A stretch of DNA of 64,000 bases. It comes from Sphingomonas sp. CL5.1 (GTDB lineage: Bacteria > Pseudomonadota > Alphaproteobacteria > Sphingomonadales > Sphingomonadaceae). Of this stretch, positions 14,090-33,003 are shown piece by piece (the first letter of the stretch is position 1; each line of letters begins with the position of its first letter). Under the pieces are notes generated by a model. The model searched no databases, was not told where the DNA came from, and saw nothing but the letters and a program-made list of their open reading frames with translations. The DNA lies in the NCBI RefSeq assembly GCF_013344685.1, contig NZ_CP050137.1, positions 1,182,001 to 1,246,000 of the forward strand, written 5' to 3'. The translations under genes and the position numbers were made by a program.

Positions 14090-14109
14090 CAAAGGTTACC
14101 GCCTTTTGC

Positions 14110-17505: not shown

Positions 17506-18558
17506 TCAGCACTCCTGCTCGATCGGCTTCAGTTGCCCGAAACGCGCGCGATGCTGGGCCGGGCCGCCGAAACGTGGCGCCTCGACCATCGCCTTGCGCA
17601 GAAACAGGCCGATGTCGTGTTCGTCGGTGAAGCCGATGCCGCCGTGAAGCTGGATGCAGTCGCGCGTCACCTTCCGCGCCGCAGCCGAGGCCCGCGCTTT
17701 GGCGCGCGAGATCGCGGCATGGGCGGCGGAGCTGGCGCCTTGGGTGTCCCATTGCAGTGCGGCCTGGCCGATGCTGGCCCGGCTGAGCTGAATCTCCAGC
17801 CGCGCGTCCACGGCCATGTGCTGCAACACCTGGAACTGGTCGAGGGTTTTGCCGAATTGCACCCGCTGCCTGAGGTAGGCCAGCGTGATCTCCAGCGCGC
17901 CATCCATCAGGCCCAGAAGGTAAGCGGCGGTTGCCAGCGTCGCCTCGGCCAGGGCCGGTCGCGGATCGACCGCCAGCGCCTGGCAAGGGGCACCATCAAA
18001 CCGGACGTCGGCGACATGCCCGCCGTCCTGGGTCTGGTGCACCGTCACCTCGACGCCCGGCGCATCCGCGGCGACCAGCGCGCCCCTCGACGCGCCGACG
18101 ACAAGAAAGTCATCTGCGCCAGCGGCCAGCGGAACGTGGATCCTATGCGCGAAGAGCCGTCCGTCGCGGATATCCAGCGAACGCGCGGGCTCCAGGGCAT
18201 CACGCCCATCCATCCAAGCCGGCAGCACTAGCCTCTCGCCCGCGATATGCTGCTCATGCCTGACGCCGTCGAACAGACCGGAGGCAAGGATCGCCGGAAT
18301 CAGCGGCTCGGGCAGGAGCGCGCGCCCGGCCTCCTCGGCAAGCGCAGCATATGCCAGAAGGCTAAGGCCTGCGCCGCCCCGTTCTTCGGGAAGGCGCAGT
18401 GCGAGCCAGCCTAGAGAACACATCTCCGCCCAGACCGACCGGTCGAAGCCGGGCAAGGTGAAGCGCAACTTGCGGATTCGGCCAAGATCCTGACGGGCGA
18501 TGCCGCGCGCGCTGTCGCGGATCATTTCTATCGAGGAGAGAACGTCGTCGGGTATCAT
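17506..18558 (-). CDS. acyl-CoA dehydrogenase, shorter partner subunit
   Basis: At 350 residues this is shorter than typical acyl-CoA dehydrogenases. It keeps the N-terminal helical domain (GWLALRLPEERGGAGLSLLAYAALAEEAGRALLPEP, quoted in part), but its middle beta domain lacks the usual T-E-x-x-x-G-S-D motif. The C-terminal domain has RVQFGKTLDQFQVLQH and DCIQLHGGIGFTDEHD. The ATG at 18558 overlaps the stop of the hotdog gene by 4 bp. The open frame to 18669 is shadow. Loss of the mid-domain motif and tight coupling to the next acyl-CoA dehydrogenase gene support a heteromeric enzyme. Confidence 0.85.
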   Translation of the reverse strand: MIPDDVLSSIEMIRDSARGIARQDLGRIRKLRFTLPGFDRSVWAEMCSLGWLALRLPEERGGAGLSLLAYAALAEEAGRALLPEPLIPAILASGLFDGVRHEQHIAGERLVLPAWMDGRDALEPARSLDIRDGRLFAHRIHVPLAAGADDFLVVGASRGALVAADAPGVEVTVHQTQDGGHVADVRFDGAPCQALAVDPRPALAEATLATAAYLLGLMDGALEITLAYLRQRVQFGKTLDQFQVLQHMAVDARLEIQLSRASIGQAALQWDTQGASSAAHAAISRAKARASAAARKVTRDCIQLHGGIGFTDEHDIGLFLRKAMVEAPRFGGPAQHRARFGQLKPIEQEC

Positions 18559-19442
18559 GCTGGGCTCCGGATTCGTTGCTGTGGGGAGCAGTCGAGCCGG
18601 GCGAAGCCGCGGTCGACCACCACGACATCGCGCTCGACCACCCGGGCACGGAAGCTGCCGTCGCTCCATATTTCGGTGCGGATGGTTTCCCCGGGATAGG
18701 CCGGTTTCGAGAACCGCAGGCTCACGCCCCGCATGCTCTCGGCCGAATAGTCGCCGAGCGCGCGCAGCAACGCATGGCAGAGAACACCCATCGTGCAGAG
18801 CCCATGCAGGATGGGCCGTTCGAACCCCACCTGTCGCGCCAGGTCGGGGTCGCTGTGCAAGGGGTTCAGATCACCGTTCAGGCGGTAGAACAGCGCCTGT
18901 TCGGGACTAGTTGCAAGATCAACCACATGATCCGGCTGTCCTTCCGGTATCGGCCAGACCGGGTCGGAGATCGCGACCCCGACCGTGCCGCCAAAGCCGC
19001 CGCCGCCGCGTACGAAGGTGGTGCGGTTCAGCCGCGCGAAGGGGTTTCCAGCCGCGTCCCTGAGTTCGGTATCGGACAGGATCAGCGCAGGCCCGCCCGC
19101 GCCCTTGTCCACGACACCGGTGATGCGGGTCCGGCTGACGACCTCCCCCGCGGCGGGAAGCGGGGCGATCAGGGCAAATTCCTGTTCCACATGCAGCACC
19201 GCCTTCGGGTCCACGCCGGATTCTGGATCGGCGAGATAGAAGCCGGGGTGTGCCATGACCAGCACCATTGCTGGCATGACTACCGGTCCGCGAAGCGGAT
19301 CAACAAAGGGCAACTGGCGCGCATCGCAGGGATCGTGGCCCATGCCGATCGATAGGGCGTAAAAGGCGATGTCACGCGGGTTCAGCACCTGCCGGGCTGA
19401 AGGCGGCGAAAACTGCATCAGCCGGTCGATGTCAATCGGCAC
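18555..19442 (-). CDS. MaoC-type double-hotdog enoyl-CoA hydratase
   Basis: This 295-residue protein has two hotdog halves. The C-terminal half carries the hydratase-2 signature YRLNGDLNPLHSDPDLA, with catalytic Asp191, Asn193 and His196, followed by GFERPILHGLCTMG. It should add water to a trans-2-enoyl-CoA to give the (R)-3-hydroxyacyl-CoA. Layout is the same as in the peroxisomal MFE-2 hydratase unit, which suits the MFE-2-like SDR in this operon. The start is GTG 19442, overlapping the upstream gene by 11 bp. Confidence 0.9.
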   Translation of the reverse strand: MPIDIDRLMQFSPPSARQVLNPRDIAFYALSIGMGHDPCDARQLPFVDPLRGPVVMPAMVLVMAHPGFYLADPESGVDPKAVLHVEQEFALIAPLPAAGEVVSRTRITGVVDKGAGGPALILSDTELRDAAGNPFARLNRTTFVRGGGGFGGTVGVAISDPVWPIPEGQPDHVVDLATSPEQALFYRLNGDLNPLHSDPDLARQVGFERPILHGLCTMGVLCHALLRALGDYSAESMRGVSLRFSKPAYPGETIRTEIWSDGSFRARVVERDVVVVDRGFARLDCSPQQRIRSPA

Positions 19443-20289
19443 GGCACACCTCGCCCGTTGCCTTTGCCGCCATGGCGAGATAGCCGCCCGGCCCCTCGGC
19501 CCACAGGTCGAATCCCTCGCCGCCGAGCCGACCGCAGAGCACGACCGTGTCGCCGCAGAACAGCGGTGCCTGCCCGCGGAAGCTGAAGCTCCGCACCGTC
19601 CGGCCCGTCTGCTTCCGGTAGGCTTCGAGCAGAAGCGTCGCCGTCAGCGGCCCTTGCACCACGAGGCCCGGATAGCCCTCGACCTTCGTCGCGTAGGGCA
19701 GATCATAGTGGATGCGATGAGCGTTGAAGGTGACCGCCGACCAGCGGAACAAGTGCGTCGGATCGGTCGTGAAGGCCTCGCGCCAGTCCGCGTCCCGCAA
19801 GGGGGCGGGCGCAGCGGCAGAGCGCGGCGTCACCCCCGCTTCACGATAGACGATATCCTGCTCCTCCTCGACCGCCGGTCCCCCGACGTTCGAGAGGGTA
19901 TGGCGGATCGTCACGAAGACCAACGCGCCCTGCGCTCCAAATTTTTCGGATACCGAAAGGATCTCGGATTTGCGCGTCACGGTTTCCCCGATGCGCAGGG
20001 CGTGATGAAAGGTCAGCCGTCCGCCCGCCCACATCCGGCGCGGCAGCGGCACCGGGGGCAGGAAGCCGCCACGCCGCGCATGGCCATCGTCGCCAAGTTC
20101 GGAATGCGGAGCGTGAGGCGCGAAGTAGAGCCAGTGCCAGAGCGGCGGCAGCGGCTGGCCCTCTGCGGGGTGATGCCCGCGATCAAGCGTCGCGGCAAGC
20201 TGCATGGCCTGGAGAAGCGATAGCCCATCGGTCGCGGTTTCCGTCCGCCCGATCCACTGCCTGAGATGGTCAATGTCGATTTCGGTCAT
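19432..20289 (-). CDS. MaoC/FAS1-type dehydratase, mesaconyl-C4-CoA hydratase-like
   Basis: This 285-residue protein resembles HTD2 and mesaconyl-C4-CoA hydratase. Its N-terminal hotdog half includes PLPPLWHWLYFAP and RRMWAGGRLTFHHALRIGE, and its C-terminal half NAHRIHYDLPYATKVEGYPG with LVVQGPLTATLLLEAYR. The motif H-R-I-H-Y-D replaces the classical D-x-N-x-x-H and is usual for this branch. It would hydrate an unsaturated, possibly dicarboxylic or branched, CoA ester. It is coupled by TAATG to the CoA lyase gene. That pairing recalls C4/C5 dicarboxyl-CoA metabolism, but the exact substrate is unknown. Confidence 0.82.
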   Translation of the reverse strand: MTEIDIDHLRQWIGRTETATDGLSLLQAMQLAATLDRGHHPAEGQPLPPLWHWLYFAPHAPHSELGDDGHARRGGFLPPVPLPRRMWAGGRLTFHHALRIGETVTRKSEILSVSEKFGAQGALVFVTIRHTLSNVGGPAVEEEQDIVYREAGVTPRSAAAPAPLRDADWREAFTTDPTHLFRWSAVTFNAHRIHYDLPYATKVEGYPGLVVQGPLTATLLLEAYRKQTGRTVRSFSFRGQAPLFCGDTVVLCGRLGGEGFDLWAEGPGGYLAMAAKATGEVCRAD

Positions 20290-21191
20290 TATGCTTTCGG
20301 GTCCGCTGCGGCCATGCCGAGATATCGGTGCGCCAGTTTCAGATGGGCCCGGTCCACCATGCTCCCATCCACCACCGCGACGCCGGTGGTCGACGCGTCA
20401 AGCGCACCGATCGTGGTCCGCGCCCAGGCGAGCCTTTCGGGGTCGGGCCGGAAGGCCGCGTGAACCGGCGCGATCTGGTCGGGATGAATACAGAGCTTTC
20501 CTGCGAACCCCAGGGCCGCAGCCTGCCCTGCCTCGGCAACAAGGTGATCGGGCCGTCCCGGATCGGGAAAGGGCGTGTCGATGGCCATGACCCCGGCGGC
20601 TGAGGCCGCGATTACCACCCGGTGACGCGCGTACACAAGCAGCGGGTTCATCCCGTCCCCACGGCGGGCATCGACCCCCAGATCGGCAGCCAGATCCTCG
20701 GCGGCAAAGCACAGCGCGGCAAGCCGCGGCGTCACCCCGGCATAGGCCATGTCGGCCAGCGCGCCCGCCGTCTCGGTGATCAGCGGCAGGACCGCCGTGC
20801 CCTGATGCGGCAGTCCGAAGACCACTTCCAGCGCGTCAAGCCGGTCTGACAGTCGGCGAAGGGCTCGGGGTCCGTCGCACTTTGGCAGCATGATCGCATC
20901 GGGGGGCGCTGGCAGGATCGCCGCAAGGTCGGGCAGATGCCAGCCGGTGTCATCGGCGTTCACCCGGACAACCACCGGCACCGCGCGGTCTGCGGCCAAG
21001 ACCTGCGCGACCAGCGCCCGGGCTTCGGACTTGGCGTCGGGATGCACGGAATCCTCGAGATCAAGGATCACGGCATCGGCGCCCGCCGCCAGAGCCTTGT
21101 GGATACGCCTTTCGTGATTGCCCGCGCAAAACAGCAAGCTGCGCAGGGGGGCACCGCTTGTCGCCAAGAGATCAGGGAGGGCACCGACCAT
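20289..21191 (-). CDS. HpcH/HpaI-family CoA-ester lyase (CitE-like)
   Basis: This 300-residue protein has a CitE/malyl-CoA lyase-type TIM barrel. Signatures are LRSLLFCAGNHERRIHKAL, DAVILDLEDSVHP (metal and CoA region), VVRVN, DAIMLPKCD, ITETAGAL, CFAAEDLAADLG and GKLCIHPDQI. Enzymes of the family split or form beta-hydroxy-acyl-CoA esters such as malyl- or citramalyl-CoA, or act as thioesterases. Standard adipyl-CoA beta-oxidation needs no such lyase, so it hints at an extra branch in the pathway. The gene overlaps both neighbours by one base, so it is firmly part of the operon. Confidence 0.87.
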   Translation of the reverse strand: MVGALPDLLATSGAPLRSLLFCAGNHERRIHKALAAGADAVILDLEDSVHPDAKSEARALVAQVLAADRAVPVVVRVNADDTGWHLPDLAAILPAPPDAIMLPKCDGPRALRRLSDRLDALEVVFGLPHQGTAVLPLITETAGALADMAYAGVTPRLAALCFAAEDLAADLGVDARRGDGMNPLLVYARHRVVIAASAAGVMAIDTPFPDPGRPDHLVAEAGQAAALGFAGKLCIHPDQIAPVHAAFRPDPERLAWARTTIGALDASTTGVAVVDGSMVDRAHLKLAHRYLGMAAADPKA

Positions 21192-23308
21192 CAGTGGCCT
21201 CCCGCAGTTGCCGCGCCGGCGATTTCCAAAACCGCGTCAAGTGCGAAGGCACCCTGACCCTGCGGCATCGCCAGCACCGGATTGAGATCAACGGACCGTA
21301 GACCAGGCCCGGCGGCTATGGCGAACCGTGACAGCCGCGACAGCATCGCCGCGAGGGCGACGACATCGGCGGGCGGCCGGCTCCGCGCGCCTTTCAGGAT
21401 GGCCGCGGCCCGGATCGACAGGATCATCTCGCGCGCCGCCGCCTCGTCGAAAGGGCACTGGCGCACCGCGACATCTTTCAGGATCTCGACGAAGATGCCC
21501 CCCAGCCCGAAGACCGCGACCGGCCCGAAGGTCGGATCACGGCTGATGCCCATAAAGCATTCTACGCCTCCGGTCATCTGCCGGGCGACAAGAACGCCGG
21601 TGACGCGGGCATCGGGCGCTTCTTCCGCCACGGAGGCCATGATGGCGGCAAAGGCGCTCTGGACGCCATCGGGGTCGCGAATGTCCAGCTTGACGCCGCC
21701 GATATCGGATTTGTGCAAGATGTCGGGCGACAGCACCTTCATCACCACTGGATAACCGATCTGACCGGCGGCACGGATCGCTTCTTCCGCCGTCGTGGCC
21801 GTGCTCTCGGACGCGGTCACGATCCCCGCACCAATGAGAAGACGCTTGGCCTCCGCTTCGTCCGGCGTCCGGTCGGGTAGCGCCGGAGTCTGCAGGGGCA
21901 AGGGCGGCACCGGCGGCGGTAAGGCGAACGCGGCGTCAAGTCCGGACACGGCATGAAGGGCCCTAACCGCACGGCTCGGGTCCGTGAAGACCAGGAATCC
22001 GGCCTTCTCGTAGTCGTGCATGACCTCGTTCGAGCCGACGGCACAGATCACGATCAGCCGGTCGGGAAAATCCCTTCGCAGCGGCGCCATTGATTTCAGG
22101 ATGGTAGGCGCGAGGCTTGGGCTGCCCGCGACATAGGTCATGAAACAGATGACCGCACCATAGGCACCCTTCTCAAGTGCAGCGCGCGTGAACCGTTCGA
22201 ACAAGTCGGGCTGGTTCAGCGCCTGTGCCGTGCAGTCCAACGGGTTTGTCGGGGTCGAGATCGGCATCAGCGCCTTCAACTCGGTCTGCGCGGCGGCAGG
22301 CATCGGCGGCATAGCGAACCCGATAGCCTCGGCCTCGTCCGACGCGACAATGCCCGCACCGCCGGATACGGTGACGAAACCGAGCGTCGCCGACCGGGGC
22401 TGGATACGCTGATGGGCGACATAGGCTACGTCCATCAACTGTTCGCTGTCGCGCACCAGGATTGCGCCATGTGCCCGTAGGACCGTGTCGGCGACCAGCG
22501 CATCGCCGGTGAGCGAGGCGGTGTGCGACGCCGCAGCATGCGCGCCGATGGCGCTGCGCCCGGCTTTGAATACGATCACCGGCTTGCGTGCGACACGCGC
22601 GGCGTCAAGGCCCTCCAACAGCGAGCGCGGCGCGTTAATGCCTTCGAGATAGGCGCAGATCACGTCGATCTCGTCGCACTGCGCCATCCATCCTATGGCC
22701 TCGCCCACGGTGATGTCGGCCTCGTTGCCGGTCGCGATCAGCACCGATGCGCCCAGACCACGGTCGCGCGCGATCACTGCAAGATGGGCGCCGAAGGCCC
22801 CTGATTGGCTGGCGATGCCGATATTGCCAGGCAGGGGCAGGCCATTTTCGAGCGACGACGAAAAGGTGCCGAAATAGCGGTGGTTCGCGTTGAAAGCGCC
22901 CAGGGTATTCGGCCCGAGAATCCGCATCCCATAGCCGCGGGCGATTGTGAGGATCCGCTCCTGCTCCTGCCGACCGGCCTCGCCGGCCTCGGCGAAACCC
23001 GACGAGAACAGGGTGGCAGTCTTGCAGCCGCGCCGCCCCAGATCCTCGACGACGCCCGCGACATCTCTGGCTGCAACCGCGATCAGCGCGGCATCCGGGG
23101 TTTCGGGCAGCGCCGAGACCGAAGGATAGCAGGGCAGGCCCTGGATGGTGTCGCGCGTCGGGTTGACCGGCAGGATCCGGCCCTGGAACCCGGCGGCGAG
23201 CATGGTCGCAATCGGCCGCCCGCCGATCCGCGCGGGATCCGACGAGGCTCCGATCACGGCAACAGAGCGCGGGGCAAGCAGGTTGGAGATTGCAGAAAAG
23301 TCCATCAT
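21191..23308 (-). CDS. ADP-forming acyl-CoA synthetase (acetate-CoA ligase family, fused subunits)
   Basis: This 705-residue NDP-forming acyl-CoA synthetase has a CoA-binding domain first (SVAVIGASSDPARIGG), then succinyl-CoA-ligase-like domains with the phosphorylated His262 in ASHTASLTGDA. A C-terminal ATP-grasp domain holds GYPVVMKVLSPDILHKSDIG and GVECFMGISRDPTFGP. It would activate a free carboxylic acid such as a dicarboxylate made upstream. No AMP-forming ligase is present in this operon, so this is the best candidate for pathway CoA activation. Two consecutive ATG codons (23308 and 23305) are both possible starts. Confidence 0.88.
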   Translation of the reverse strand: MMDFSAISNLLAPRSVAVIGASSDPARIGGRPIATMLAAGFQGRILPVNPTRDTIQGLPCYPSVSALPETPDAALIAVAARDVAGVVEDLGRRGCKTATLFSSGFAEAGEAGRQEQERILTIARGYGMRILGPNTLGAFNANHRYFGTFSSSLENGLPLPGNIGIASQSGAFGAHLAVIARDRGLGASVLIATGNEADITVGEAIGWMAQCDEIDVICAYLEGINAPRSLLEGLDAARVARKPVIVFKAGRSAIGAHAAASHTASLTGDALVADTVLRAHGAILVRDSEQLMDVAYVAHQRIQPRSATLGFVTVSGGAGIVASDEAEAIGFAMPPMPAAAQTELKALMPISTPTNPLDCTAQALNQPDLFERFTRAALEKGAYGAVICFMTYVAGSPSLAPTILKSMAPLRRDFPDRLIVICAVGSNEVMHDYEKAGFLVFTDPSRAVRALHAVSGLDAAFALPPPVPPLPLQTPALPDRTPDEAEAKRLLIGAGIVTASESTATTAEEAIRAAGQIGYPVVMKVLSPDILHKSDIGGVKLDIRDPDGVQSAFAAIMASVAEEAPDARVTGVLVARQMTGGVECFMGISRDPTFGPVAVFGLGGIFVEILKDVAVRQCPFDEAAAREMILSIRAAAILKGARSRPPADVVALAAMLSRLSRFAIAAGPGLRSVDLNPVLAMPQGQGAFALDAVLEIAGAATAGGH

Positions 23309-23315: not shown

Positions 23316-23741
23316 TCAAAGAGTGTCTTGCCATCCGAGGAATGCGGTCGCTGGGGCCAAGAAATGCCCCGCCATTGATGTTGGTGGGCAGCGCGCCGCC
23401 CCAGGCCCCTCAAGCCGCGCCAGCGCAGTGGCGCCGATCCGCGCGCTTTCGACGCCCGGCGCGCATGACTTCATCCGCGGGCCTTCCTCCTGCGTGACCG
23501 GCACCACCTTTTCTGTCATCCTCCGCCGGCGCGCGACGGTGGGCACGTAGATGGTTCCCGGGCCCGAAGCCTCGACCCACTCGAGATCACAGGCGCCAAA
23601 ATGATCGGCGAGTCGGGGCCAGAACACATAGTCTCCGGTTAGACACGCACGCTGAATCACCAACAACCCTTGGGCCAGCAACACCTCGTAGGCGGCTTTG
23701 AGGGCCATTTGGCTCTCTGCTGAAGGCGGCGCGACAGGCAT
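23316..23741 (-). CDS. DUF35 OB-fold protein with degenerate zinc ribbon
   Basis: This 141-residue protein aligns with DUF35/ChsH2-type proteins: LEWVEASGPGTIY at the ribbon-OB junction, then EEGPRMKS and ESARIGATALARLEG in the OB fold. The zinc ribbon normally has two CxxC pairs. Here only RACLTG and FGACD remain, so zinc binding is probably lost. Partners of such proteins are thiolases and MaoC hydratases, both of which are present in the operon. It starts 1 bp after the aldehyde dehydrogenase stop. It could be a decaying gene or a zinc-free scaffold. Confidence 0.7.
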   Translation of the reverse strand: MPVAPPSAESQMALKAAYEVLLAQGLLVIQRACLTGDYVFWPRLADHFGACDLEWVEASGPGTIYVPTVARRRRMTEKVVPVTQEEGPRMKSCAPGVESARIGATALARLEGPGAARCPPTSMAGHFLAPATAFLGWQDTL

Positions 23742-23742
23742 C

Positions 23743-25185
23743 TCAAATTGCCGCCTGAGTGACTAGTTTAGAAATCAGATACGAGTCGATGGCTTCCGAT
23801 CCGCCCTCGCTTCCGAAGCCGGAATCCTTGACCCCGCCAAGCGGCAATTCTGGCAATCCCAGCAGGGTGTGGTTGATGGCGAGCATGCCAACTTCCAGTT
23901 CGGTCTGGAGCCGCTGCGAATTGCGGATTGAAGAGGTGAATGCATAGGCGGCAAGACCGTAGGGAAGACGGTTCGCCTCGGTTATCGCCTCGTCGATCGT
24001 GTCGAAGGGCGACAGGATCGCAACCGGTCCGAAGGGCTCGTCGTTCTGGATGCGCGACGAGAGGCTGACCCCGGTAAGGATCGTGGGGGCATGAAAGAAT
24101 CCCGGCTGCGGCGTCGCTTCGCCCGAAGCGAGGATATGCGCCCCCTCCTGGATCGCCTCCTCGATCATCCCCGAAACCGCCTTCAGCCTGCGTTCGCTGA
24201 CAAGCGGACCCATCGAGGTTCCGGGCTTCAAGCCCGACCCGACCCGGACTTTCCCGACATGTTCGGCCAGCGCCGCCGCGAAACGCTCGTAGATGCCCTT
24301 CTGGACCAGAACCCGCGTCGGAGAGATGCAGACTTGCCCAGCATTGCGGACCTTGAAGCCCGCAACGGCTGCGGCCGCAGTCTCGACGTTCGCGTCGTCA
24401 CAGACGATCACCGGATTGTGGCCGCCCAGTTCCATCGTGATGCGCTTCATGTGCTTGCCGGCCAGGGCCGCAAGCTGCTTGCCCACCGGAACCGATCCGG
24501 TGAAAGACACTTTTCGGATCACCGGATGCGGAATGAGGTAGTCCGCGATTTGCGCCGGTTCGCCGAAGACGATGTTGAGGACACCTGCGGGAAGCCCCGC
24601 ATCCAGCAGCGCCCGCGCAAGTGCGGCGGGCGAGGCGGGCGTATCCTCGGGCGGCTTGGCGATGACGGTGCAGCCGACCGACAGCGCCGGCCCCAGCTTT
24701 CGCACCAGTTGCGACATCGGGAAGTTCCACGGCGTGAAGGCGGCGACCGGGCCCACGGGCTGTTTCAGCACCATCTGGGTCACGTTCGGCGTCCGTGCCG
24801 GGATCACCTGGCCATAGGCCCGCCGGCCTTCACCGGCAAACCAGTCGAGCAGGTCGGCCGACGACATCACCTCGGCCCGCGCTTCGATCAGGGGCTTGCC
24901 CATTTCGGTGGTGATGAGTTCCGCAAGCTGGTCGGCACGCTCGCGCAGAAGAACGCCCGCGCGGCGCAGGATGCCGCTTCGCGCATAGGCCCCCGCGTCG
25001 CGCCAGGGGGCAAAGGCAGTGCCGGCGGACTGTATCGCCTCTTCGAGGTCGGCAGGTTCGGCCATGGCATAGTGGCCGATCACCGAGGCCGTTGCCGGGT
25101 CGTAGACGGCAGAGCGGCGCTTCATCGCTCCGTCCCTCCAGCTTCCGTTGATCAGAAGCTGTGTGTCAGGGTAGATCACGCTCAT
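23743..25185 (-). CDS. NAD(P)-dependent semialdehyde dehydrogenase (ChnE candidate)
   Basis: This 480-residue aldehyde dehydrogenase of the succinate-semialdehyde type has FTPWNFP (150-156), KPPEDTP, FTGSVPVGK, the general base Glu252 in MELGGHNP and the nucleophile Cys286 in GQVCISPT. In a chn-like route it would oxidise 6-oxohexanoate to adipate. Its start overlaps the preceding alcohol dehydrogenase stop by 4 bp, as expected if the two act in sequence. The motif alone would also fit succinate or glutarate semialdehyde. The chn assignment rests on context. Confidence 0.88.
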   Translation of the reverse strand: MSVIYPDTQLLINGSWRDGAMKRRSAVYDPATASVIGHYAMAEPADLEEAIQSAGTAFAPWRDAGAYARSGILRRAGVLLRERADQLAELITTEMGKPLIEARAEVMSSADLLDWFAGEGRRAYGQVIPARTPNVTQMVLKQPVGPVAAFTPWNFPMSQLVRKLGPALSVGCTVIAKPPEDTPASPAALARALLDAGLPAGVLNIVFGEPAQIADYLIPHPVIRKVSFTGSVPVGKQLAALAGKHMKRITMELGGHNPVIVCDDANVETAAAAVAGFKVRNAGQVCISPTRVLVQKGIYERFAAALAEHVGKVRVGSGLKPGTSMGPLVSERRLKAVSGMIEEAIQEGAHILASGEATPQPGFFHAPTILTGVSLSSRIQNDEPFGPVAILSPFDTIDEAITEANRLPYGLAAYAFTSSIRNSQRLQTELEVGMLAINHTLLGLPELPLGGVKDSGFGSEGGSEAIDSYLISKLVTQAAI

Positions 25186-26276
25186 CGGACCCTCTGATCT
25201 GCTGCTTCGGGCAGGTAATCGCCGACGCCGGTCAAGACCGCCCGACCGATGATCTTGCCCTCGGCCAAGCGGTTGAGGACGGCCTCCGCCTCGTCCAGCT
25301 GGTAGCGTGTCGTGGGAATGGGGCTGATCTCACCCTTGCGGGCAAGCTCCATCAGCTGCGCGAACTCTCCGGGCGAGCCGGCGTAGCTGCCGCGGATCGT
25401 GATGGATTTCAGCGCGATCAGCGGCAGGGACCAGGGGGCGCCGCCACCGAATAGGCCGACAACGACATAGGTTCCGCCCTTGCTCACGGCGTTGAACCCG
25501 AGCTCGGCCGTCGTTTCGGCACCGACGAAGTCGATCACGGCGAGGGGTGCCCCGCCGGCGGCGGCATGGATCTCCGCCACCACGTCCGGCGCGCTGGGGT
25601 CGATCGCCGCGCAGGCGCCCGCCGCAAGGGCTGCTTCGCGCTTGACGGGATCGAGATCCACGAAGACCGGCGCCTGTGCACCCATTGCCCGCAAGAGCTG
25701 CGCGCACATCAGGCCCAAGCCGCCCGCCCCGATGATCAGCGGCGCATGGTCCTTCAGCGTGTTCTCGACCTTCTTCAGCGCACCGAAGGCGGTAAGCCCT
25801 GAACATGCCAGCGGCGCGGCAGTTTCGGGCGGCATGTTGCCGATCTCAAAAAGATATTTAGGATGCGGCACCCGGATTTGCGTGGCATAGCCGCCATCTA
25901 CATGGATGCCGAGGAATTTCGGGGTCCCGCACAATTGCTCGTTCCCGCCCTTGCAGACCGCACAGGTGCCGCAGCCGATCCAGGGGTAGACCACATAGGT
26001 CTTTCGGGTGTCGATGTTACCGGCATCGGGTCCCGTGGCAACGACCTTGCCCGCAGTTTCATGGCCCATCACGAGAGGCAGCGAGATTCCCCGCTTGGCG
26101 AACTCCAACTTGCGTCCGCGACCGAGGTCATAGCCGCCGTCGCGAATGTGCAAGTCGGTATGGCAGACGCCCGCAGCCGTCACCGACAGAACGACTTCGG
26201 TTCCCTGCGGGGCTAGATCCGGCCTGTCATCCGAACGGAGGGGCCGGCCGAATTCATGAACGCACTGACAATGCAT
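25182..26276 (-). CDS. zinc-dependent alcohol dehydrogenase (ChnD candidate, hydroxyacid dehydrogenase)
   Basis: This 364-residue medium-chain dehydrogenase has catalytic zinc ligands Cys38 and His72 (GHETAG) with Cys158. The structural zinc site is Cys102, 105, 108 and 116 (CGTCAVCKGGNEQLC), and the NAD site is GAGGLG at 183-188. In a chn-like pathway it would oxidise 6-hydroxyhexanoate to 6-oxohexanoate before the coupled aldehyde dehydrogenase acts. The ATG at 26276 starts MHCQCVHEFG, an N-terminus I associate with ChnD-type enzymes. The 141 bp upstream hold no gene and may contain an internal promoter. Confidence 0.88.
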   Translation of the reverse strand: MHCQCVHEFGRPLRSDDRPDLAPQGTEVVLSVTAAGVCHTDLHIRDGGYDLGRGRKLEFAKRGISLPLVMGHETAGKVVATGPDAGNIDTRKTYVVYPWIGCGTCAVCKGGNEQLCGTPKFLGIHVDGGYATQIRVPHPKYLFEIGNMPPETAAPLACSGLTAFGALKKVENTLKDHAPLIIGAGGLGLMCAQLLRAMGAQAPVFVDLDPVKREAALAAGACAAIDPSAPDVVAEIHAAAGGAPLAVIDFVGAETTAELGFNAVSKGGTYVVVGLFGGGAPWSLPLIALKSITIRGSYAGSPGEFAQLMELARKGEISPIPTTRYQLDEAEAVLNRLAEGKIIGRAVLTGVGDYLPEAADQRVR

Positions 26277-26417
26277 GGATTTTCCTTCTGCTTGCTGCGG
26301 ATCCCTGGGACGCTCCCTGATCGCGCCGTCATTCGTTTCGACCAGGACAGCATCACCACGTTGAAACCGGGCAGTGCCGTCCTGCCATCACGTTATCGAA
26401 CCACTTCTCCGACCAGC

Positions 26418-27305
26418 CTAAAAGAACTTCGCAAGCCGAAGGGTTAATGTCGCATCGCGCTTGAAATTGTTTTTCGCCTCCACGTCGTGACCGACTTCTA
26501 TCAGGAACTGGGTGGTCGGATTCAGCATCTGCGACCAGTCCGCCCGCACCGTGGTGGACGTCACGTCCGCACCCTTGACGCCTCCAATGGTTTCCGCCCC
26601 ACCGCGGTTCGTTATGCCCCCGAATGAGAGCGTCGTCTTGTCGCTAGCCTGATAGTTCAGCCAGCCGAGCGCAGTATAGCTCGCATCCTTCCGGATGGTC
26701 GTCGCACCAGCGCCATCATGGTTGTCCCCGTAGATCGTAGTGCCGCCGACAAGATCGACCGACCACTTGGGGGCAATTTTGAAACGGAAGCCAGGTTGAA
26801 TGGCTACGGACCATCGATTGGCGGCAAGGCCGGGCCTGGTAGCCGAATAGTCGCCGGTGGGAAGCGTCAGATAGGTGGCAATCCCGAAGTATCGGCCCTT
26901 CTTGGGATCGTTCAGTGGCCAGACTGTGCCGACAAGCGTCAAGTCTCCGGGTGTGAACTCCTTAGTGCCGATTTTTCGCCCGCCGAGCCTCATGTTGTGC
27001 AGCCCTCCGAAGGGTTGCAGCACGTTCACGTCAGCGCGCACGCCCGCCACGTCGAAATAATAGACGTAGCGCAGGAGGAGCACATTCGTGTCAAGGCTTG
27101 ATGCAGGCACATCATTGCCTTTGGCATCCACGAAGTTGTCGGACGTGCTGCCAAGATAGTACACGAGTCCGAGTTGCGTTCCCGCTGGAGCGGTCACAAA
27201 ATCGCCCGGTTGTGCGTCTTGGGCGTATGCGGCGGTGGTCGGCAATGCCGCGACCGACCCGACCGCCATGAGAACGCAACAGCGTATTTCCCTCGAGGTC
27301 TTCAT
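26418..27305 (-). CDS. outer-membrane channel of the phenol/MetA degradation family
   Basis: This 295-residue protein has a signal peptide cleaved near TAAYAQDAQ. A beta-strand-rich body with alternating aromatic residues ends in LRLAKFF, a typical C-terminal Phe of outer-membrane barrels. It resembles proteins found in aromatic and alicyclic degradation operons, thought to move hydrophobic substrates across the outer membrane. Its place between the oxygenase genes and the downstream dehydrogenases supports a transport role for the pathway substrate. An AGGAGAG ribosome site precedes the ATG at 27305. Confidence 0.8.
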   Translation of the reverse strand: MKTSREIRCCVLMAVGSVAALPTTAAYAQDAQPGDFVTAPAGTQLGLVYYLGSTSDNFVDAKGNDVPASSLDTNVLLLRYVYYFDVAGVRADVNVLQPFGGLHNMRLGGRKIGTKEFTPGDLTLVGTVWPLNDPKKGRYFGIATYLTLPTGDYSATRPGLAANRWSVAIQPGFRFKIAPKWSVDLVGGTTIYGDNHDGAGATTIRKDASYTALGWLNYQASDKTTLSFGGITNRGGAETIGGVKGADVTSTTVRADWSQMLNPTTQFLIEVGHDVEAKNNFKRDATLTLRLAKFF

Positions 27306-27407
27306 GTTCTCTCTCCTCTCCTGAATTCTATTTTCTGTTATTGGCCAACGGCGGCGCGCTCCTGCGATGACGGTCGAATGCGTACGCCGCCGCCAGCGCT
27401 GCTGCCG

Positions 27408-28160
27408 TCAGTTGGCGGTGTAGCCACCGTCCACCAGGAGTTCCGCGCCATGCACGAAGGACGATTCGTCCGAGGCAAGGAACAGCACCGCTTTCGACAC
27501 TTCGACCGGCAGGCACGGCCGGTCGAATAGGGTCGCCCCCATGATCGCCTTGCGGGTCGCGGCATCCCCGTGGAGCAGATCCTTGGTCATCGAGGTGTCG
27601 ATGACGCCCGGATGGACCGAGTTCACGCGGATGCCGTACTGGATCAGATCGACGGCGCAGGATTTCGTCAGCAACCGCACCGCACCCTTCGACGCGATGT
27701 AGGCGCCCGCCGCCGGCGCCCCGACGATTCCGTAGATCGACGAGATGTTGACGATCGAGGCCTTGCGCCCCTTCATCAGGGGTACGCAGGCGCGGATGCC
27801 CAGCCAGACACCGCGCACGTTGACATTGAAGACGGAGTCCCATTCGTCGTTAGTGGTTTCATGCGCGGGCTTCAGGACGAGTATCCCGGCGTTGTTGACA
27901 AGGATGTCGAGGTGGCCCACTTTCTTGGTGATCGCCGCAATCACGCTGTTCCAGTCGCTTTCGCTGGTCACGTCATGCTGGATGAAGTCGGCTTTGCCAC
28001 CCGCAGCGACGATGCCCTTAACCACCGCTTCGCCCGCCGCTGTTTCGCGGTCGGTTACGAAGACATGAGCGCCCTCTTTGGCGAGTTCCTCGGAATGGGT
28101 CCTGCCCATCCCCATCGCTCCACCGGTAACCAGCGCCACCTTTCCTTGTACGCGTCCCAT
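27408..28160 (-). CDS. SDR alcohol dehydrogenase (ChnA candidate)
   Basis: This classical 250-residue SDR has cofactor motif TGGAMGMG (12-19), NNAG (89-92), catalytic Ser141, Tyr154 and Lys158, and a PG motif near residue 184. Such enzymes oxidise cyclic secondary alcohols, for example cyclohexanol to cyclohexanone, or hydroxysteroids. The gene is 84 bp downstream of the Baeyer-Villiger monooxygenase gene, which makes a cyclic alcohol dehydrogenase role natural. GGAGAGGG precedes the ATG at 28160. Confidence 0.88.
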   Translation of the reverse strand: MGRVQGKVALVTGGAMGMGRTHSEELAKEGAHVFVTDRETAAGEAVVKGIVAAGGKADFIQHDVTSESDWNSVIAAITKKVGHLDILVNNAGILVLKPAHETTNDEWDSVFNVNVRGVWLGIRACVPLMKGRKASIVNISSIYGIVGAPAAGAYIASKGAVRLLTKSCAVDLIQYGIRVNSVHPGVIDTSMTKDLLHGDAATRKAIMGATLFDRPCLPVEVSKAVLFLASDESSFVHGAELLVDGGYTAN

Positions 28161-28244
28161 ATGCTTTCCCTCTCCGGCATTGAGTGAAGGCGGGGGCCGG
28201 GGGGCCGGTTCCCCCGACGGCCGATTTGGTTCGGGAGCCCAAGC

Positions 28245-29861
28245 TCAGTGATCGAAGTCGAGCGTGGCGTAGTCGGCGTCCACGACTTTCTGAAGCTCGG
28301 TCCGGTAGGCGCCGAGCCCTGCCAGATAGAAGCGCACCGCATTCTTCTTGCCCGGTATGTTTGCCCCGAAGATCCAGGATTGGGCTTTCGGGAACAGCGT
28401 CATGTCGGCGATGGTCTGACAGGTGTCGATCCAGCTGTCGCGCGCTTCCAGCTTCGGCTCGATGGTCTTGCGACCCTCAGCTTCCATCATTGCCACAGTG
28501 TCGGCGATCCATTCGACTTGCACCTCGATGCTGGGCACCAGGTTGGTGAACGGCCCGTTGGGGCCAAGGATCATGAACAGGTTGGGGAAATCGCATTCCA
28601 TGATTCCCAAGTAGCCAAGCGGGCCATCCTTCCACAGCTGGTTCATCGTCACTCCACCCCTGCCGCGCATGTCGATCTTGGTGTAGTTGCCTTCCACCGC
28701 ATCGAAACCCGTTGCAAAGACCACGATATCCAGTTCATGCTCCGCACCGCTGGCCAGCTTGATGCCCTTCGGGGTGAACTCGGCGATCGGATCCGCCTTC
28801 ACATCCACCAGGTTGACGTTGTCGCGGTTGTAGACTTCGTAGTAGTCCATTCCGCAGAGCGGGCGCTTGGCATAGAGATCGGTCGGCATCAGCTTGCGCG
28901 CGGTTTCGGGGTCCTTCACGATCTGTGCGATCTTGCGCTTTATGAAGTTCGACGCCGCGTCGTTGGCCTCCTGGTTGGTGGCGATGTCGCAGAAGGTCTC
29001 GAACATGAAGCGGAAACCGCCGCCGCGCTGCCAGGCTTCCTCGAACACGCGCTCGCGCTCGGCCTCAGAGACCGAGATCGCGGGAACCGTGCTTTCGTGG
29101 AAGCCGAAAGCGACGGCCGAGGATCTGATCTGCTTCCAGATGTCGTCGTAGCGGGCCTTGTAGTCATTGATCTTCGCCTGATCCTCCGGCCAGTTGCCGA
29201 TCGGCACGACATACTGAGCCGACCGCTGGAACACCGTCAGGTGGCTAGCAACCGGCGCCAGCGCGATGATGACCTGCACCCCGGTCGAGCCGGTGCCAAC
29301 GACGCCGACGCGCTTGCCGCGGAGGTCGACGCCTTCCGGCCACGCCCCGGTGTGGTAGATATTGCCCTTGAACGTGTCGATGCCCTTGAACTGCGGGGTA
29401 TTGGTGGCCGAAAGCAGCCCAAGCCCGGTAACAAGGTATTTCGCGGTGATCGTCTGGCCCTCGTCGGTCGTCACGCTCCACAGACTCGTCGCCTCGTCGA
29501 AGCGCGTGGCCGTGACGCTGGTGTTGAACTGATAGCTGCGTCGGATATCGTAACGGTCGGCAAAATCGTTAAAATAGCTGATGATTTCGGGCTGCGTCAG
29601 ATAGCGCGATTTCCACTGGCCCTGCTGGAGCAGATCCTTGTCGAAGGAAAAACGGTAGCAGAAGCTTTCGGTATCCGAGAGCGCGCCGGGATAGCGGTTC
29701 CAGAACCAAGTTCCGCCGACATCCCCGCCGTTGTCGTAAGCCTGCACCGACAGGCCAAGCTCATCGCGGAGCTTGTGGACAGCGTACAGTCCCCCAAAAC
29801 CCGCGCCGATAACCACGGCGTCGACATCAGCGCCCTTGGTCTTGCTGACATTCATGTTCAT
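28245..29861 (-). CDS. Baeyer-Villiger monooxygenase (cyclohexanone monooxygenase type, ChnB candidate)
   Basis: This 538-residue flavoprotein has two Rossmann motifs, GAGFGG at 19-24 (FAD) and GTGSTG at 189-194 (NADPH). Between them lies the type I Baeyer-Villiger fingerprint FKGNIYHTGAW at 164-174 (F-x-G-x-x-x-H-x-x-x-W). It also has DVGGTWFWNRYPGALSD and YSIxTG-like VFATGFDAVEGNY. It inserts oxygen next to a ketone to make a lactone. Length matches cyclohexanone monooxygenase rather than the longer steroid or cyclopentadecanone enzymes. Two in-frame ATGs open the gene (residues 1 and 3); AAGGGA lies just upstream. Ring size of the substrate cannot be read from sequence. Confidence 0.92.
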   Translation of the reverse strand: MNMNVSKTKGADVDAVVIGAGFGGLYAVHKLRDELGLSVQAYDNGGDVGGTWFWNRYPGALSDTESFCYRFSFDKDLLQQGQWKSRYLTQPEIISYFNDFADRYDIRRSYQFNTSVTATRFDEATSLWSVTTDEGQTITAKYLVTGLGLLSATNTPQFKGIDTFKGNIYHTGAWPEGVDLRGKRVGVVGTGSTGVQVIIALAPVASHLTVFQRSAQYVVPIGNWPEDQAKINDYKARYDDIWKQIRSSAVAFGFHESTVPAISVSEAERERVFEEAWQRGGGFRFMFETFCDIATNQEANDAASNFIKRKIAQIVKDPETARKLMPTDLYAKRPLCGMDYYEVYNRDNVNLVDVKADPIAEFTPKGIKLASGAEHELDIVVFATGFDAVEGNYTKIDMRGRGGVTMNQLWKDGPLGYLGIMECDFPNLFMILGPNGPFTNLVPSIEVQVEWIADTVAMMEAEGRKTIEPKLEARDSWIDTCQTIADMTLFPKAQSWIFGANIPGKKNAVRFYLAGLGAYRTELQKVVDADYATLDFDH

Positions 29862-29975
29862 GTTCTTTTCCCTTGAGGGGACGCGGCACCAGGCTGCGTC
29901 ACCGCAGGCAACAGGTGCGCGTCCGAAATGTTAGATGCAGTCGGCGCTGATGGCCGTCAGGCACGCGCGGGCGGA

Positions 29976-30881
29976 TCAGGGTCGGAGCGCCTTGTACCAA
30001 GCGGCGATGTTCGCCAGTTCGGCGTTGGCTTCCGGCGCGCGGCCGGACAGGGCGAGAAAGACGTGCTGCATGCCGGGCACGACCGAAAGCTGCGCCTTCA
30101 CGCCGGCGGCCTTCACCTTGCTGAAAAGGCTTTCCGAATCGCTCCTGAGCGTTTCGGCGCTGCCGCATGCGATGTAGATCGGCGGGAAGCCAGCGAAATC
30201 GTTTTCCAGCGGGTTCGCCAGTTTGTCCAGCGGGTCGGTCTTACCACCCAGGAACATTCCGGCCATCCCTTCAAGGACGGCACGGCTGACCAGCGCATCG
30301 GTAGCCGCGTTCGTCTTCAACGTGTCGCCGCGCAGCGCCATGTCGAGCCAGGGCGAATAAGCGATAACCGCGCCCGGCAGCGGCAGACCGAGGTCGCGGA
30401 ACTTCAGCACGCTCGAGACCGCGAGATTGCCGCCCGCACTGTCACCTGCCGTCAGGATGTTGCGGGCCTCGTATCCCTTGGCGAGCAGGGCCTTGTAGGC
30501 CGAAACGGCATCCTCGATCTGCGCCGGGTAGGGATGCTCGGGCGCACGGCGATAATGCAAGATCACCGCCGTGACACCAAGCGCCTTGGCCAGGTGCCCG
30601 GCGATCTTGCGGTGGCTTTCCGCCGAGCCGACGGCAAAGCCGCCGCCATGGGTGTACTGGATGACGCGAGTCTTGTCCGCACCCGCAGGCAGGGCCCAGA
30701 GCGCATCGACGCCGCCGACAACATCGCTCTTGTAGCTGACATCCTCGGGCTCCAGCGCAGGCTGGCCCCATTCATCGAACATGCTGCGTAGGTTCAGGAT
30801 CGTCAGGTTCGGATTCGCGACCATCTGGTCGGTCCAACTCTGATAAAGCGCGCGCAGAACGTCGGCTTCCTTGCTAATCAT
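29976..30881 (-). CDS. HSL-family alpha/beta hydrolase (ChnC candidate, lactone hydrolase)
   Basis: This 301-residue hydrolase of the hormone-sensitive lipase family has oxyanion motif HGGGF (78-82), nucleophile Ser148 in GDSAGGN and catalytic His273 in GMQHVF. It would open the lactone made by the Baeyer-Villiger monooxygenase to a hydroxy acid. It is the first gene of the long minus-strand operon, with AGGAGAGAG before the ATG, and is divergent from the IclR regulator. Spacing to the monooxygenase gene is 114 bp. Confidence 0.87.
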   Translation of the reverse strand: MISKEADVLRALYQSWTDQMVANPNLTILNLRSMFDEWGQPALEPEDVSYKSDVVGGVDALWALPAGADKTRVIQYTHGGGFAVGSAESHRKIAGHLAKALGVTAVILHYRRAPEHPYPAQIEDAVSAYKALLAKGYEARNILTAGDSAGGNLAVSSVLKFRDLGLPLPGAVIAYSPWLDMALRGDTLKTNAATDALVSRAVLEGMAGMFLGGKTDPLDKLANPLENDFAGFPPIYIACGSAETLRSDSESLFSKVKAAGVKAQLSVVPGMQHVFLALSGRAPEANAELANIAAWYKALRP

Positions 30882-30937: not shown

Positions 30938-31068
30938 GAACGCGCCAAGGCGGCCGGTATTGGACGTTCTTGCGCGACGCATTGAACGGTCTTGGCACTC
31001 CGGCGAGCCGGCGTATGTCTGTCAGTCCTCACCGGAGCGGTGCTTGTAGCTTGCGGTTATCCCGCAGA

Positions 31069-31085
31069 GCGGAATAAAATTCCGC
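31069..31085. promoter_or_regulatory. 17-bp perfect palindrome, candidate IclR operator
   Basis: GCGGAAT-AAA-ATTCCGC is a perfect inverted repeat with a 3-bp spacer. It lies 63 bp before the IclR start codon in the divergent intergenic region. Size and spacing fit IclR-family operators, so autoregulation and control of the divergent operon are both plausible. Confidence 0.5.
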
Positions 31086-31147
31086 AATTTGACGAATGCG
31101 GCGGCCTCGGGCTACTCTTTCGCGAGGCGCCACCAAGGGGGAGTCGG

Positions 31148-31939
31148 ATGAGACCAAGGAAGGAGCCCAGTCCCGAGCTGGAGCAGGATCGCAATTTCGT
31201 CGTCGCCCTGTCGCGCGGGCTGGAGATTCTGCGCGCCTTTGGCCGCGAGGGCGAGGCGCTAGGCAACCGGGACTTTGCCCAGCGCACCGGGATGTCCAAG
31301 TCCACCATCTCGCGGCTGACCTACACATTGCACAAACTGGGCTATCTCAGCCATGACGCGGATACGGCCCGTTACAGACTAGCCCCGCCGGTCCTGACGC
31401 TTGGCTATGCCTGCCTTGCCGGACTTCCCCTTCGGAAGTTGTCCAAACCGCTGATGCAGGAAATCGCCGATTACACCGGGATGCCAGTGGCGATGGTCGC
31501 CCGTGACAAGATGTCGATGGTGTATCTTGAGCGATGCAAGGGCACTAATGCATTGACCCTAGCCATCGAGGTTGGCGCCCATGTCAAGATGGCGACCAGC
31601 GCCGCGGGTCGCGCCAGCGTTGCCGCCATGGCGACGAATGGGTACCCCGAAATTCTCGAGGAGCTCCGCGACCACGAGGGCGAGAACTGGACGCTGGTCG
31701 AGCCGGGAATCGAAGCAGCGATCGAAAGCTACCTAAAGCGCGGTTTTTGCACCTCATACGGAGAGTGGCGCAGCGACGTGAATGCTGTCGCGGTGCCGCT
31801 TCTACCGCGCGATGGTTCGCCAGTCATGGCCTTCAACTGCGGCGGCCCTTCGCATTCTCTCACGCGCGACTGGATCGAGAGTGACGTAGCGGCACGCATG
31901 GTTTCGCTCGTCCGGCGCGTGTCGGAGTTCGCCTCATGA
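31148..31939 (+). CDS. IclR-family transcriptional regulator
   Basis: This 263-residue regulator has an N-terminal winged helix (RGLEILRAFGREG, then RDFAQRTGMSKSTISRLTYTLHKLGYL) and a C-terminal IclR effector domain (VYLERCKGTNAL, AAGRASVAAM, NAVAVPLLPRDG). The ATG at 31148 follows AAGGGGGAG and fits family length; the open frame reaching 30992 is only upstream sequence. It is divergent from the degradation operon and shares a 4-bp overlap with an AraC-type gene, so the two regulators are made together. PcaR/PobR-like members activate aromatic acid pathways with a pathway metabolite as signal. Confidence 0.88.
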   Translation: MRPRKEPSPELEQDRNFVVALSRGLEILRAFGREGEALGNRDFAQRTGMSKSTISRLTYTLHKLGYLSHDADTARYRLAPPVLTLGYACLAGLPLRKLSKPLMQEIADYTGMPVAMVARDKMSMVYLERCKGTNALTLAIEVGAHVKMATSAAGRASVAAMATNGYPEILEELRDHEGENWTLVEPGIEAAIESYLKRGFCTSYGEWRSDVNAVAVPLLPRDGSPVMAFNCGGPSHSLTRDWIESDVAARMVSLVRRVSEFAS

Positions 31940-33003
31940 TGACCCGCCTTGCAGCCGGTTCGGTAACGCGCGACAGCGTCTCGGGGCTCGTGCATCCCGA
32001 CGCTCCGATGCCGCTTGCTCCCGGTGCGGGGGGCGTCGGACGGCTCGCCGAATGTCAAACGGGACATTCCCCGCCGGGCCCGAGCTACGATCCCCGCAGA
32101 GGCCTGAACGGACGGCAGGACGGGACTAAACACCTAGTGCCGCCGGATAGGATTCCCGAGTGGATTCCGGGCGTGCAGACCTTGGATTCTTCGTACCAGG
32201 ACTGGAGCGGCATCACCCTGAAGGGTTATGACTACGACCGCCAGTCGGCAGCAATCCCGCCCATGCGTGATTACATGATTGTCGGCTACGGGGGCAGCCC
32301 GACCTCAATGCATCGAACCGCCGGCAGAGCACGTGAAGAAGGGGAAGTCGGCCCCGGTCGGGTATCCCTACTGACCCGAGCGGAACAATCCACTTGGGCT
32401 TGGCGCGATCCGATCCAGGTCCGGCACATATATCTTGGTCACGAGGAAATCGAGACCGCAGCGCAGGGCGTGTTCGATCGCGATCCGCTCTCTATCGAGA
32501 TCTCTGACTGCGTGTCGACCGAAGATCCCCTGATCGTGAACTGTTTCGACATACTTGGAGCCGAACTGAAATGTGGCGAGTTCGGCCAGCGGCTGATGGT
32601 GGACGCCGTGCGCAGCCTGCTGGCTGTGCACCTTCTGCGCCACTACGCCAGGATTCAGCTGCCCGACGAGCAGAATGCCGGGCTTACAGCTGTGCAAAGG
32701 AACCGGATCGTCGACCTGATCAATTCGCGACTGGACGAGAATATCAGCCTCGACGAACTCGCCCGCATTGCGGGCACGAGCCCCTTCCAGTTCTCGCGCA
32801 GGTTCAAGGTCGATTTCGGGATAGCCCCCTATAGATATGTCATCCGCGCGCGAGTAGCCAAGGCACAGGAAATGCTGCGCCGTCGTAAGGTCCCACACAA
32901 GGTCATCGCTTTCGAGTGCGGCTTTTCGGATCAAAGCCATTTCTGCCGCACATTTCGGAGGATAACCGGCGTGTCGCCGAGTGAATACCAGAGCAAAGCC
33001 TGA
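31936..33003 (+). CDS. AraC/XylS-family transcriptional regulator
   Basis: This 355-residue protein has the two AraC helix-turn-helix motifs in its last 100 residues: ISLDELARIAGTSPFQFSRR and VIAFECGFSDQSHFCRTFRR. The end is GVSPSEYQ. The N-terminal part resembles sensor regions of XylS-type proteins, with HIYLGHEEIETAA. ChnR, the activator of cyclohexanone monooxygenase in Acinetobacter, belongs to this family, so it is the natural candidate activator of the divergent operon. Its ATG lies in the IclR stop (ATGATG). Residues 1-70 are Gly/Pro-rich and may not all be translated; a later start is possible. Confidence 0.85.
   Translation: MMTRLAAGSVTRDSVSGLVHPDAPMPLAPGAGGVGRLAECQTGHSPPGPSYDPRRGLNGRQDGTKHLVPPDRIPEWIPGVQTLDSSYQDWSGITLKGYDYDRQSAAIPPMRDYMIVGYGGSPTSMHRTAGRAREEGEVGPGRVSLLTRAEQSTWAWRDPIQVRHIYLGHEEIETAAQGVFDRDPLSIEISDCVSTEDPLIVNCFDILGAELKCGEFGQRLMVDAVRSLLAVHLLRHYARIQLPDEQNAGLTAVQRNRIVDLINSRLDENISLDELARIAGTSPFQFSRRFKVDFGIAPYRYVIRARVAKAQEMLRRRKVPHKVIAFECGFSDQSHFCRTFRRITGVSPSEYQSKA

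Follow-up and report, generated by a model that had tools for sequence, protein, structure and literature searches.

A chn-type cycloalkanone gene run of Sphingomonas sp. CL5.1 continues into a candidate methylsuccinyl-CoA branch and suggests a route for methyl-substituted rings

We analyzed a window of 64,000 nt from Sphingomonas sp. CL5.1 (NZ_CP050137.1, positions 1,182,001-1,246,000; all coordinates below are window positions), in which a set of chn-type genes, named for the cyclohexanol pathway, occupies positions 23743-30881 of the minus strand. The one-direction run extends beyond these genes down to 11479 and comprises 17 genes in total. Downstream of the chn genes, it carries an acyl-CoA synthetase gene, beta-oxidation genes, and relatives of (RS)-methylsuccinyl-C4-CoA dehydrogenase (Mcd), itaconyl-/mesaconyl-C4-CoA hydratase (Ich) and (S)-citramalyl-CoA lyase (Ccl). 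Because the degradation of unsubstituted cyclohexanol proceeds through adipyl-CoA to succinyl-CoA and requires none of the last three enzymes, a methyl-bearing ring is suggested. We propose, with about even confidence, that the chn pathway is here extended to methyl-substituted cyclohexanol or cyclohexanone and would end in pyruvate and acetyl-CoA. Gene content and order, the clade of the monooxygenase, the enzyme families and the recurrent linkage were obtained by sequence analysis; from these we infer the methyl substituent and every reaction in the host organism. An original prediction for this region had described the chn genes as fused in one direction to beta-oxidation genes, which the packed run down to 11479 bears out; it makes no mention of the methylsuccinyl-CoA/itaconyl-CoA branch, for which plain adipate has no need.

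Results

Six open reading frames (ORFs), all stop-free, lie at 23743-30881 where they had been placed originally, and Pfam matches and motifs agree with their assignment to a complete chn-type set on one minus-strand run. In the order C-B-A-channel-D-E, they encode an HSL-type alpha/beta hydrolase, a candidate lactone hydrolase that adjoins the monooxygenase in relatives (ChnC-like, 29976..30881; PF07859, 6.5e-52; motifs HGGG and GDSAG); a type I Baeyer-Villiger monooxygenase (BVMO) of the CHMO clade (ChnB-like, 28245..29861); an SDR, candidate cyclohexanol dehydrogenase (ChnA-like, 27408..28160; PF13561, 1.8e-64; YIASK); a putative outer-membrane channel (26418..27305; PF13557, Phenol_MetA_deg, 1.6e-21); a Zn alcohol dehydrogenase (ADH), candidate 6-hydroxyhexanoate dehydrogenase (ChnD-like, 25182..26276; PF00107 and PF08240; Zn motifs GHE and CxxCxxCx7C); and an SSADH-like aldehyde dehydrogenase (ALDH), candidate 6-oxohexanoate dehydrogenase (ChnE-like, 23743..25185; PF00171, 3e-154; GQVC). 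Best Pfam E-values across the six ORFs range from 2e-16 to 3e-154, which excludes chance family assignment. The SDR, the hydrolase and the two dehydrogenases are thus linked, have intact motifs, and are chn-type by family and motif. No named, characterized 6-hydroxyhexanoate dehydrogenase was present among the best 120 of 5885 protein matches of the Zn-ADH. The host genome has 11 P450 matches, none of them inside the window, and no ring hydroxylase could be linked to the run. Taken alone, the chn part very probably encodes a cyclohexanone-type ring-opening pathway.

The roles of ChnA-E in the Acinetobacter cyclohexanol pathway are outlined in PMC4738008. As described there, that pathway shares the five enzyme classes with the window, where an adjacent AraC-family regulator is a candidate counterpart of ChnR. 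Beyond the Acinetobacter set, the window has the channel gene, an IclR gene, the gene for an ADP-forming CoA synthetase, and the beta-oxidation and Mcd/Ich/Ccl genes.

Type I BVMOs are recognized by the fingerprint FxGxxxHxxxWP, and the window enzyme carries FKGNIYHTGAWP together with the two Rossmann motifs GAGFGG and GTGSTG. Its best match in the PDB is TmCHMO (764 bits, 61% identity), with lower scores for PAMO (479-494 bits), STMO (469 bits) and OTEMO (425 bits), and it shares 73% identity with a protein from Xanthobacter flavus that is listed in UniRef as cyclohexanone 1,2-monooxygenase. In a midpoint-rooted tree of 38 rows, it falls inside a 35-row clade (support 100/98) that includes TmCHMO and the Xanthobacter CHMO, while STMO and two paralogs from the same genome fall outside. 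Clustering with steroid, terpenoid or acyclic ketone enzymes had been named beforehand as the outcome on which the ChnB assignment would fail; both the tree (STMO) and the PDB scores (PAMO, OTEMO) placed the enzyme with CHMO. A steroid-type BVMO is ruled out by the same scores and tree, the own-genome paralog L003 grouping with STMO instead. This second BVMO of the genome (also recorded as L066, G000:C1:2435535-2441322) adjoins another set of Mcd-like (61%), CaiB and Ich-like (48%) genes as well as aromatic-ring genes. The nearest relatives of the window BVMO, at 86-91%, are from a Roseovarius metagenome-assembled genome (MAG) and from proteins without a source name. At E<=1e-200, we detected the BVMO in 1 of 385 genomes of the class (its own), 2 of 397 of the family and 5 of 295 of the genus; at least 74% identity was reached in 4 of the 295 genus genomes, its own included; and a first scan of relatives at E<=1e-150 returned only its own genome among 61.

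Two itaconate/methylsuccinate loci have close homologs of the candidate Mcd (11479..12642, minus strand, as are all genes of the run): the dehydrogenase of a Variovorax cluster is 76% identical over 387 aa, and its counterpart in a plasmid locus of Cupriavidus necator N-1 is 74% identical over 382 aa. We set the start of the window gene to 12642 rather than to 12900, where the longest ORF begins, since the resulting 387 aa then match the Variovorax homolog. The Variovorax stretch also has genes for a MaoC protein, a CoA transferase, an MmgE/PrpD protein and a CoA ester lyase, so that all five gene types are present. The cluster enzymes of C. necator and Pseudomonas aeruginosa are described as (RS)-methylsuccinyl-C4-CoA dehydrogenases that form mesaconyl-C4-CoA, from which a hydratase and a lyase yield pyruvate and acetyl-CoA (Gonner et al. 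2025, PMC12290011). We regard 11479-12642 as a candidate methylsuccinyl-C4-CoA dehydrogenase by homology to the dehydrogenases of the Variovorax and C. necator N-1 loci. Like the Cupriavidus and Pseudomonas cluster as described in PMC12290011, the window pairs Mcd (74-76%) with Ich (51-52%) and a candidate Ccl-type lyase; unlike it, the window run has no close itaconate CoA transferase (Ict) or MmgE/PrpD isomerase and is joined to a ring-opening pathway.

The candidate Ich, a MaoC-type hydratase (MaoC1, 19432..20289), matched no more than two PDB entries, 8huc and 8khg (the latter under the name itaconyl-CoA hydratase), which are of equal length and scored 249 bits each. It is 51-52% identical to the Cupriavidus and Variovorax cluster proteins, and we consider it a candidate of the itaconyl-CoA hydratase type. 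The candidate Ccl, a CitE/HpcH family lyase (20289..21191; PF03328), belongs to the right superfamily, with PDB acyl-CoA lyases at 110-115 bits.

Further genes of the block encode an ADP-forming acyl-CoA synthetase, candidate (methyl)adipate activator (21191..23308; PF13549, PF13607 and PF13380; 62-65% in other chn loci); a MaoC/MFE-2 type enoyl-CoA hydratase 2 (MaoC2, 18555..19442; PF01575, PF22622 and PDB matches); a PimD-like small-subunit acyl-CoA dehydrogenase (ACADs, 17506..18558, start probably 18558; PF00441; pimD 108 bits, below the cut-off of 653); a PimC-like large-subunit acyl-CoA dehydrogenase (ACADl, 16339..17502; pimC 282 bits, below the cut-off of 624); a second SDR (SDR2, 15407..16321, start probably 16321; PF00106; best model PRK07791, below cut-off), candidate 3-hydroxyacyl-CoA dehydrogenase; a thiolase of the PRK06205 subfamily (14110..15315); and a PF13336-type CoA transferase (12836..14092, by Pfam). 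The thiolase scored 643 bits against PRK06205 (cut-off 551) and 329 bits against pcaF (cut-off 597); it is thus not of the PcaF type, which speaks against the plain pcaF adipate pathway.

Having established the gene content, we compared 34 loci, the window included, in which the BVMO is at least 54% identical to that of the window. Excluded before this count were L029 and L036 (shorter copies of L060 and L061), L026-L028 (partial matches of 26-29%) and the own-genome paralogs L002-L008; of the 33 plasmid records whose BVMO reached E<=1e-165, 11 were fetched, and the per-gene thresholds were set by the analyst (for example, channel 28%, Mcd 55%, CitE 36%). Many flanks are short, which makes absences in this table weak. 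The contiguous order C-B-A-channel-D-E occurs in 8 of the 34 loci, that is, the window and seven others: those of Variovorax sp. 679, a Hydrogenophaga MAG and Pigmentiphaga sp. (L013, L014 and L024), the Actibacterium plasmid pNS6002 (L060), and three genomes of the same genus (G461, G513 and G618). The order had been thought new, a claim these seven loci rule out. They also divide the claim made for the channel: the PF13557 gene is linked to the chn genes as predicted, but its description as "inserted" is not supported. L013, L014 and L024 are near-identical to one another, as are G461, G513 and G618, which lie close to Actibacterium in the BVMO tree; the shared order hence represents two or three lineages besides the window. 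In L011, L012, L015 and one copy in L032, the order is C-B-A-D-E, with the channel elsewhere or absent. L032, a Pseudomonas kurunegalensis plasmid, holds two chn copies of different clades, one of them partial, side by side among transposase genes. In G618 (L080, G618:C112), the BVMO, ALDH and channel frames are broken, through decay or assembly error.

Of the 34 loci, 6 have Mcd and Ich near chn genes: the window, G461, G513 and G618, and the two roseobacter plasmids Actibacterium pNS6002 and Pseudosulfitobacter pSMR1-4 (L061). The Pseudosulfitobacter lyase falls under the CitE threshold although it is annotated as citryl-CoA lyase. Within the genus, an Mcd-like gene at E<=1e-140 is present in all four genomes with a CHMO of at least 74% identity and in 41 of the 291 others (Fisher 5e-4); when Mcd is required to reach at least 74% identity, a cut-off chosen post hoc, the counts are 4/4 against 2/291 (Fisher 5e-8). 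Both p-values are too optimistic because G461, G513 and G618 share ancestry. Like the window, Actibacterium pNS6002 and G461/G513/G618 have C-B-A-channel-D-E, Mcd, Ich, Ccl, the CoA synthetase, MaoC2, the acyl-CoA dehydrogenase pair and SDR2; their channel (68-70%) and ALDH (85-86%) closely resemble those of the window in Actibacterium, G461 and G513. Unlike the window, they have several gene groups on both strands and a CaiB-type CoA transferase, and their lyase, hydratase and beta-oxidation genes are of another lineage. The order-sharing loci L013, L014 and L024 differ in that Mcd, Ich and Ccl were not found in their fetched flanks, which are only 1-7 kb.

The window block instead resembles that of Paracoccus versutus pBEN/pTAV4 (L058, L087), which has the same CitE-MaoC1-MaoC2-ACADs-ACADl-SDR2-thiolase order at 63-86% identity and an Mcd at 81%, and differs in having two MmgE/PrpD genes, ETF and ETF-QO. 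In trees made by a quick method, that of ACADl with 5 rows only, window CitE, ACADl, SDR2 and Mcd group with P. versutus (SH-like approximate likelihood ratio test, SH-aLRT, 98-99), apart from the Actibacterium/G461 set, and MaoC1 does so weakly (SH-aLRT 91). This grouping suggests that the window probably recruited its downstream block separately from the Actibacterium/G461 set, and separate recruitment argues for function over chance. It thus appears that chn genes were paired with Mcd and Ich on at least two occasions.

An annotated pcaF is present in six chn loci on plasmids of alphaproteobacteria, which fall into two near-uniform types; neither Mcd nor Ich was found in their 12-20 kb flanks. 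Plasmids of roseobacters, Roseibium and Labrenzia carry their near-uniform cassette of chn genes, ETF and pcaF (L030, L031, L035, L084, L085 and L086), in many cases close to genes for conjugation or partition.

Between the window ALDH and synthetase genes lies a divergent OB-fold (ChsH2-C/DUF35-like) ORF (23316..23741) with no Pfam match, possibly a relic without its thiolase-like partner. Actibacterium, G461 and G513 have a gene that is 45-48% identical to it across 69% of the window ORF, and the Actibacterium homolog matches PF01796 and adjoins a Thiolase_C_1 gene. Since no Thiolase_C_1 gene stands between the OB-fold ORF and the synthetase gene in the window, a deletion is suggested here.

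Divergent from the run are an IclR regulator gene (30992..31939, plus strand; the listed start probably lies upstream of the true one) and, adjoining it, an AraC-family regulator gene in a ChnR-like position (31936..33003, plus strand). IclR homologs of 60-69% stand beside the chn genes of Actibacterium, G461, G513, Roseibium and Sulfitobacter, and AraC homologs of 40-77% beside those of several tabulated loci. Gaps among the first five genes (C to D) measure 84-141 bp; from ADH through SDR2, with likely start codons assumed, neighbors either overlap or are separated by no more than 17 bp; and farther on, the thiolase is preceded by a gap of 91 bp, the CoA transferase by one of 17 bp and the last dehydrogenase (start 12642) by one of about 193 bp. 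A scan of 11300-31200 gave 1 promoter-like site (shuffle mean 3.3) and 8 terminator-like sites (shuffle mean 13.3), counts that lie below the shuffle means and are therefore uninformative on transcripts. The whole run is predicted to be co-transcribed. An IS110-type transposase gene lies at 53055-54086 (plus strand), and on Actibacterium pNS6002 and Polaromonas JS666 plasmid 2, too, chn genes have IS110 genes in their vicinity.

Discussion

In the pathway that we propose, the SDR (A) would oxidize the alcohol, the CHMO-type BVMO (B) would form the lactone, the HSL hydrolase (C) would open the ring, and ADH (D) and ALDH (E) would yield methyladipate. CoA would be added by the ADP-forming synthetase or the CoA transferase. 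One round of beta-oxidation by the PimC/D-like pair, MaoC2, SDR2 and the thiolase would then release acetyl-CoA and methylsuccinyl-CoA, and Mcd, Ich and Ccl would convert methylsuccinyl-C4-CoA through mesaconyl-C4-CoA and citramalyl-CoA to pyruvate and acetyl-CoA. From the chemistry, 3-methylcyclohexanone may serve as an example: its proximal lactone would give 2-methyladipate, whose C6-CoA ester would lead to methylsuccinyl-C4-CoA. Somewhat more tentatively, we suggest that an aerobic pathway for methylcyclohexanol and methylcyclohexanone was assembled at least twice from a chn upper part, methyladipyl-CoA beta-oxidation and the methylsuccinyl-C4-CoA branch.

Several points weigh against this extension to methyl-substituted rings. 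The weakest link of the branch assignment is CitE, which is 36-41% identical to the cluster lyases and scores 166 bits against NCBIfam RipC, below the cut-off of 375. The run has no close CaiB-type Ict, having the PF13336 transferase instead, and the CaiB gene of the window (40562-41872) is 29% identical to Ict. No MmgE/PrpD isomerase was found by Pfam scan among the 17 run genes and 23 other window ORFs, which are part of the window ORFs. Rings with a 4-methyl group would give a C1-CoA ester, a poor direct fit to a C4-specific dehydrogenase. For 28 of the 34 BVMO loci, Mcd and Ich were not found in the flanks that had been fetched, which in many cases span no more than 12 kb. The closest relative with context, the Roseovarius MAG locus L009 (BVMO 86%), has C-B-A-D, and no channel, ALDH or downstream genes were found within 10 kb. 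The downstream trees have the limits given above, and G461, G513 and G618, being near-identical, count as one event. Finally, the Paracoccus block stands without chn genes in its fetched flanks, and the downstream block is therefore not specific to ring ketones.

This last observation also favors an alternative in which the window holds an ordinary cyclohexanol/cyclohexanone module: adipate would go to acetyl-CoA and succinyl-CoA, and Mcd, Ich and Ccl would serve itaconate or methylsuccinate taken up separately. The CHMO clade and the full A-E set fit such a module, and the branch is common, an Mcd-like gene at E<=1e-140 occurring in 45 of 295 genus genomes. We nevertheless consider this alternative less probable, given that the same functions, in versions from different lineages, are found repeatedly next to chn genes and that CitE and MaoC1 sit within the packed part of the run, flanked by the CoA synthetase gene on one side and the beta-oxidation genes on the other. 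The thiolase, too, is not PcaF, whereas the six other chn plasmid loci have pcaF; another thiolase could serve adipate, and for that reason we retain the plain adipate route as a rival despite this result.

A different branched substrate that also ends in methylsuccinyl-CoA, such as a larger methyl ring ketone, a terpenoid fragment or a branched dicarboxylate, appears improbable. CHMO-type enzymes are promiscuous and the dehydrogenase pair resembles PimC/D, but OTEMO, STMO and PAMO scores are far below that of CHMO, and ADH with ALDH implies a primary alcohol after ring opening. A neighboring group also speaks for this substrate: at 33179-41872 (minus strand) lie genes for acetoacetyl-CoA synthetase, 3-hydroxy-3-methylglutaryl-CoA (HMG-CoA) lyase, enoyl-CoA hydratase, an MFS protein, a TonB receptor and a CaiB transferase, with a second IclR gene at 42081; the group looks like one for 3-methylglutaconyl/HMG-CoA catabolism. 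That the pieces were joined recently without shared function is very improbable. Three points speak for it: GC differs (61.4% in C-B-A-channel, 64.7% in D-E, 65.3% downstream), the orphan OB-fold gene suggests a deletion, and a BVMO of at least 74% identity is found in 4 of 295 genus genomes only. Against it, the ORFs are intact, gaps are short through most of the run, and the linkage recurs elsewhere.

Among the matches listed from the open-licence PMC literature, we found no paper that joins chn genes to methylsuccinate, which is weak evidence of absence, and no gene-level route for methyl-branched rings via methylsuccinyl-CoA. Methylcyclohexane is a common component of crude oil. If the extension to methyl-substituted rings is correct, one gene run would provide a testable route from such rings to pyruvate and acetyl-CoA and would reveal a natural aerobic source of methylsuccinyl-CoA that was previously unnoticed. 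It would also offer one explanation for the recurrence of methylsuccinyl-CoA genes among environmental bacteria, and the presence of Mcd and Ich as opposed to pcaF beside chn genes would serve as a simple marker to distinguish methyl-ring from plain-ring degraders in genomes and metagenomes.

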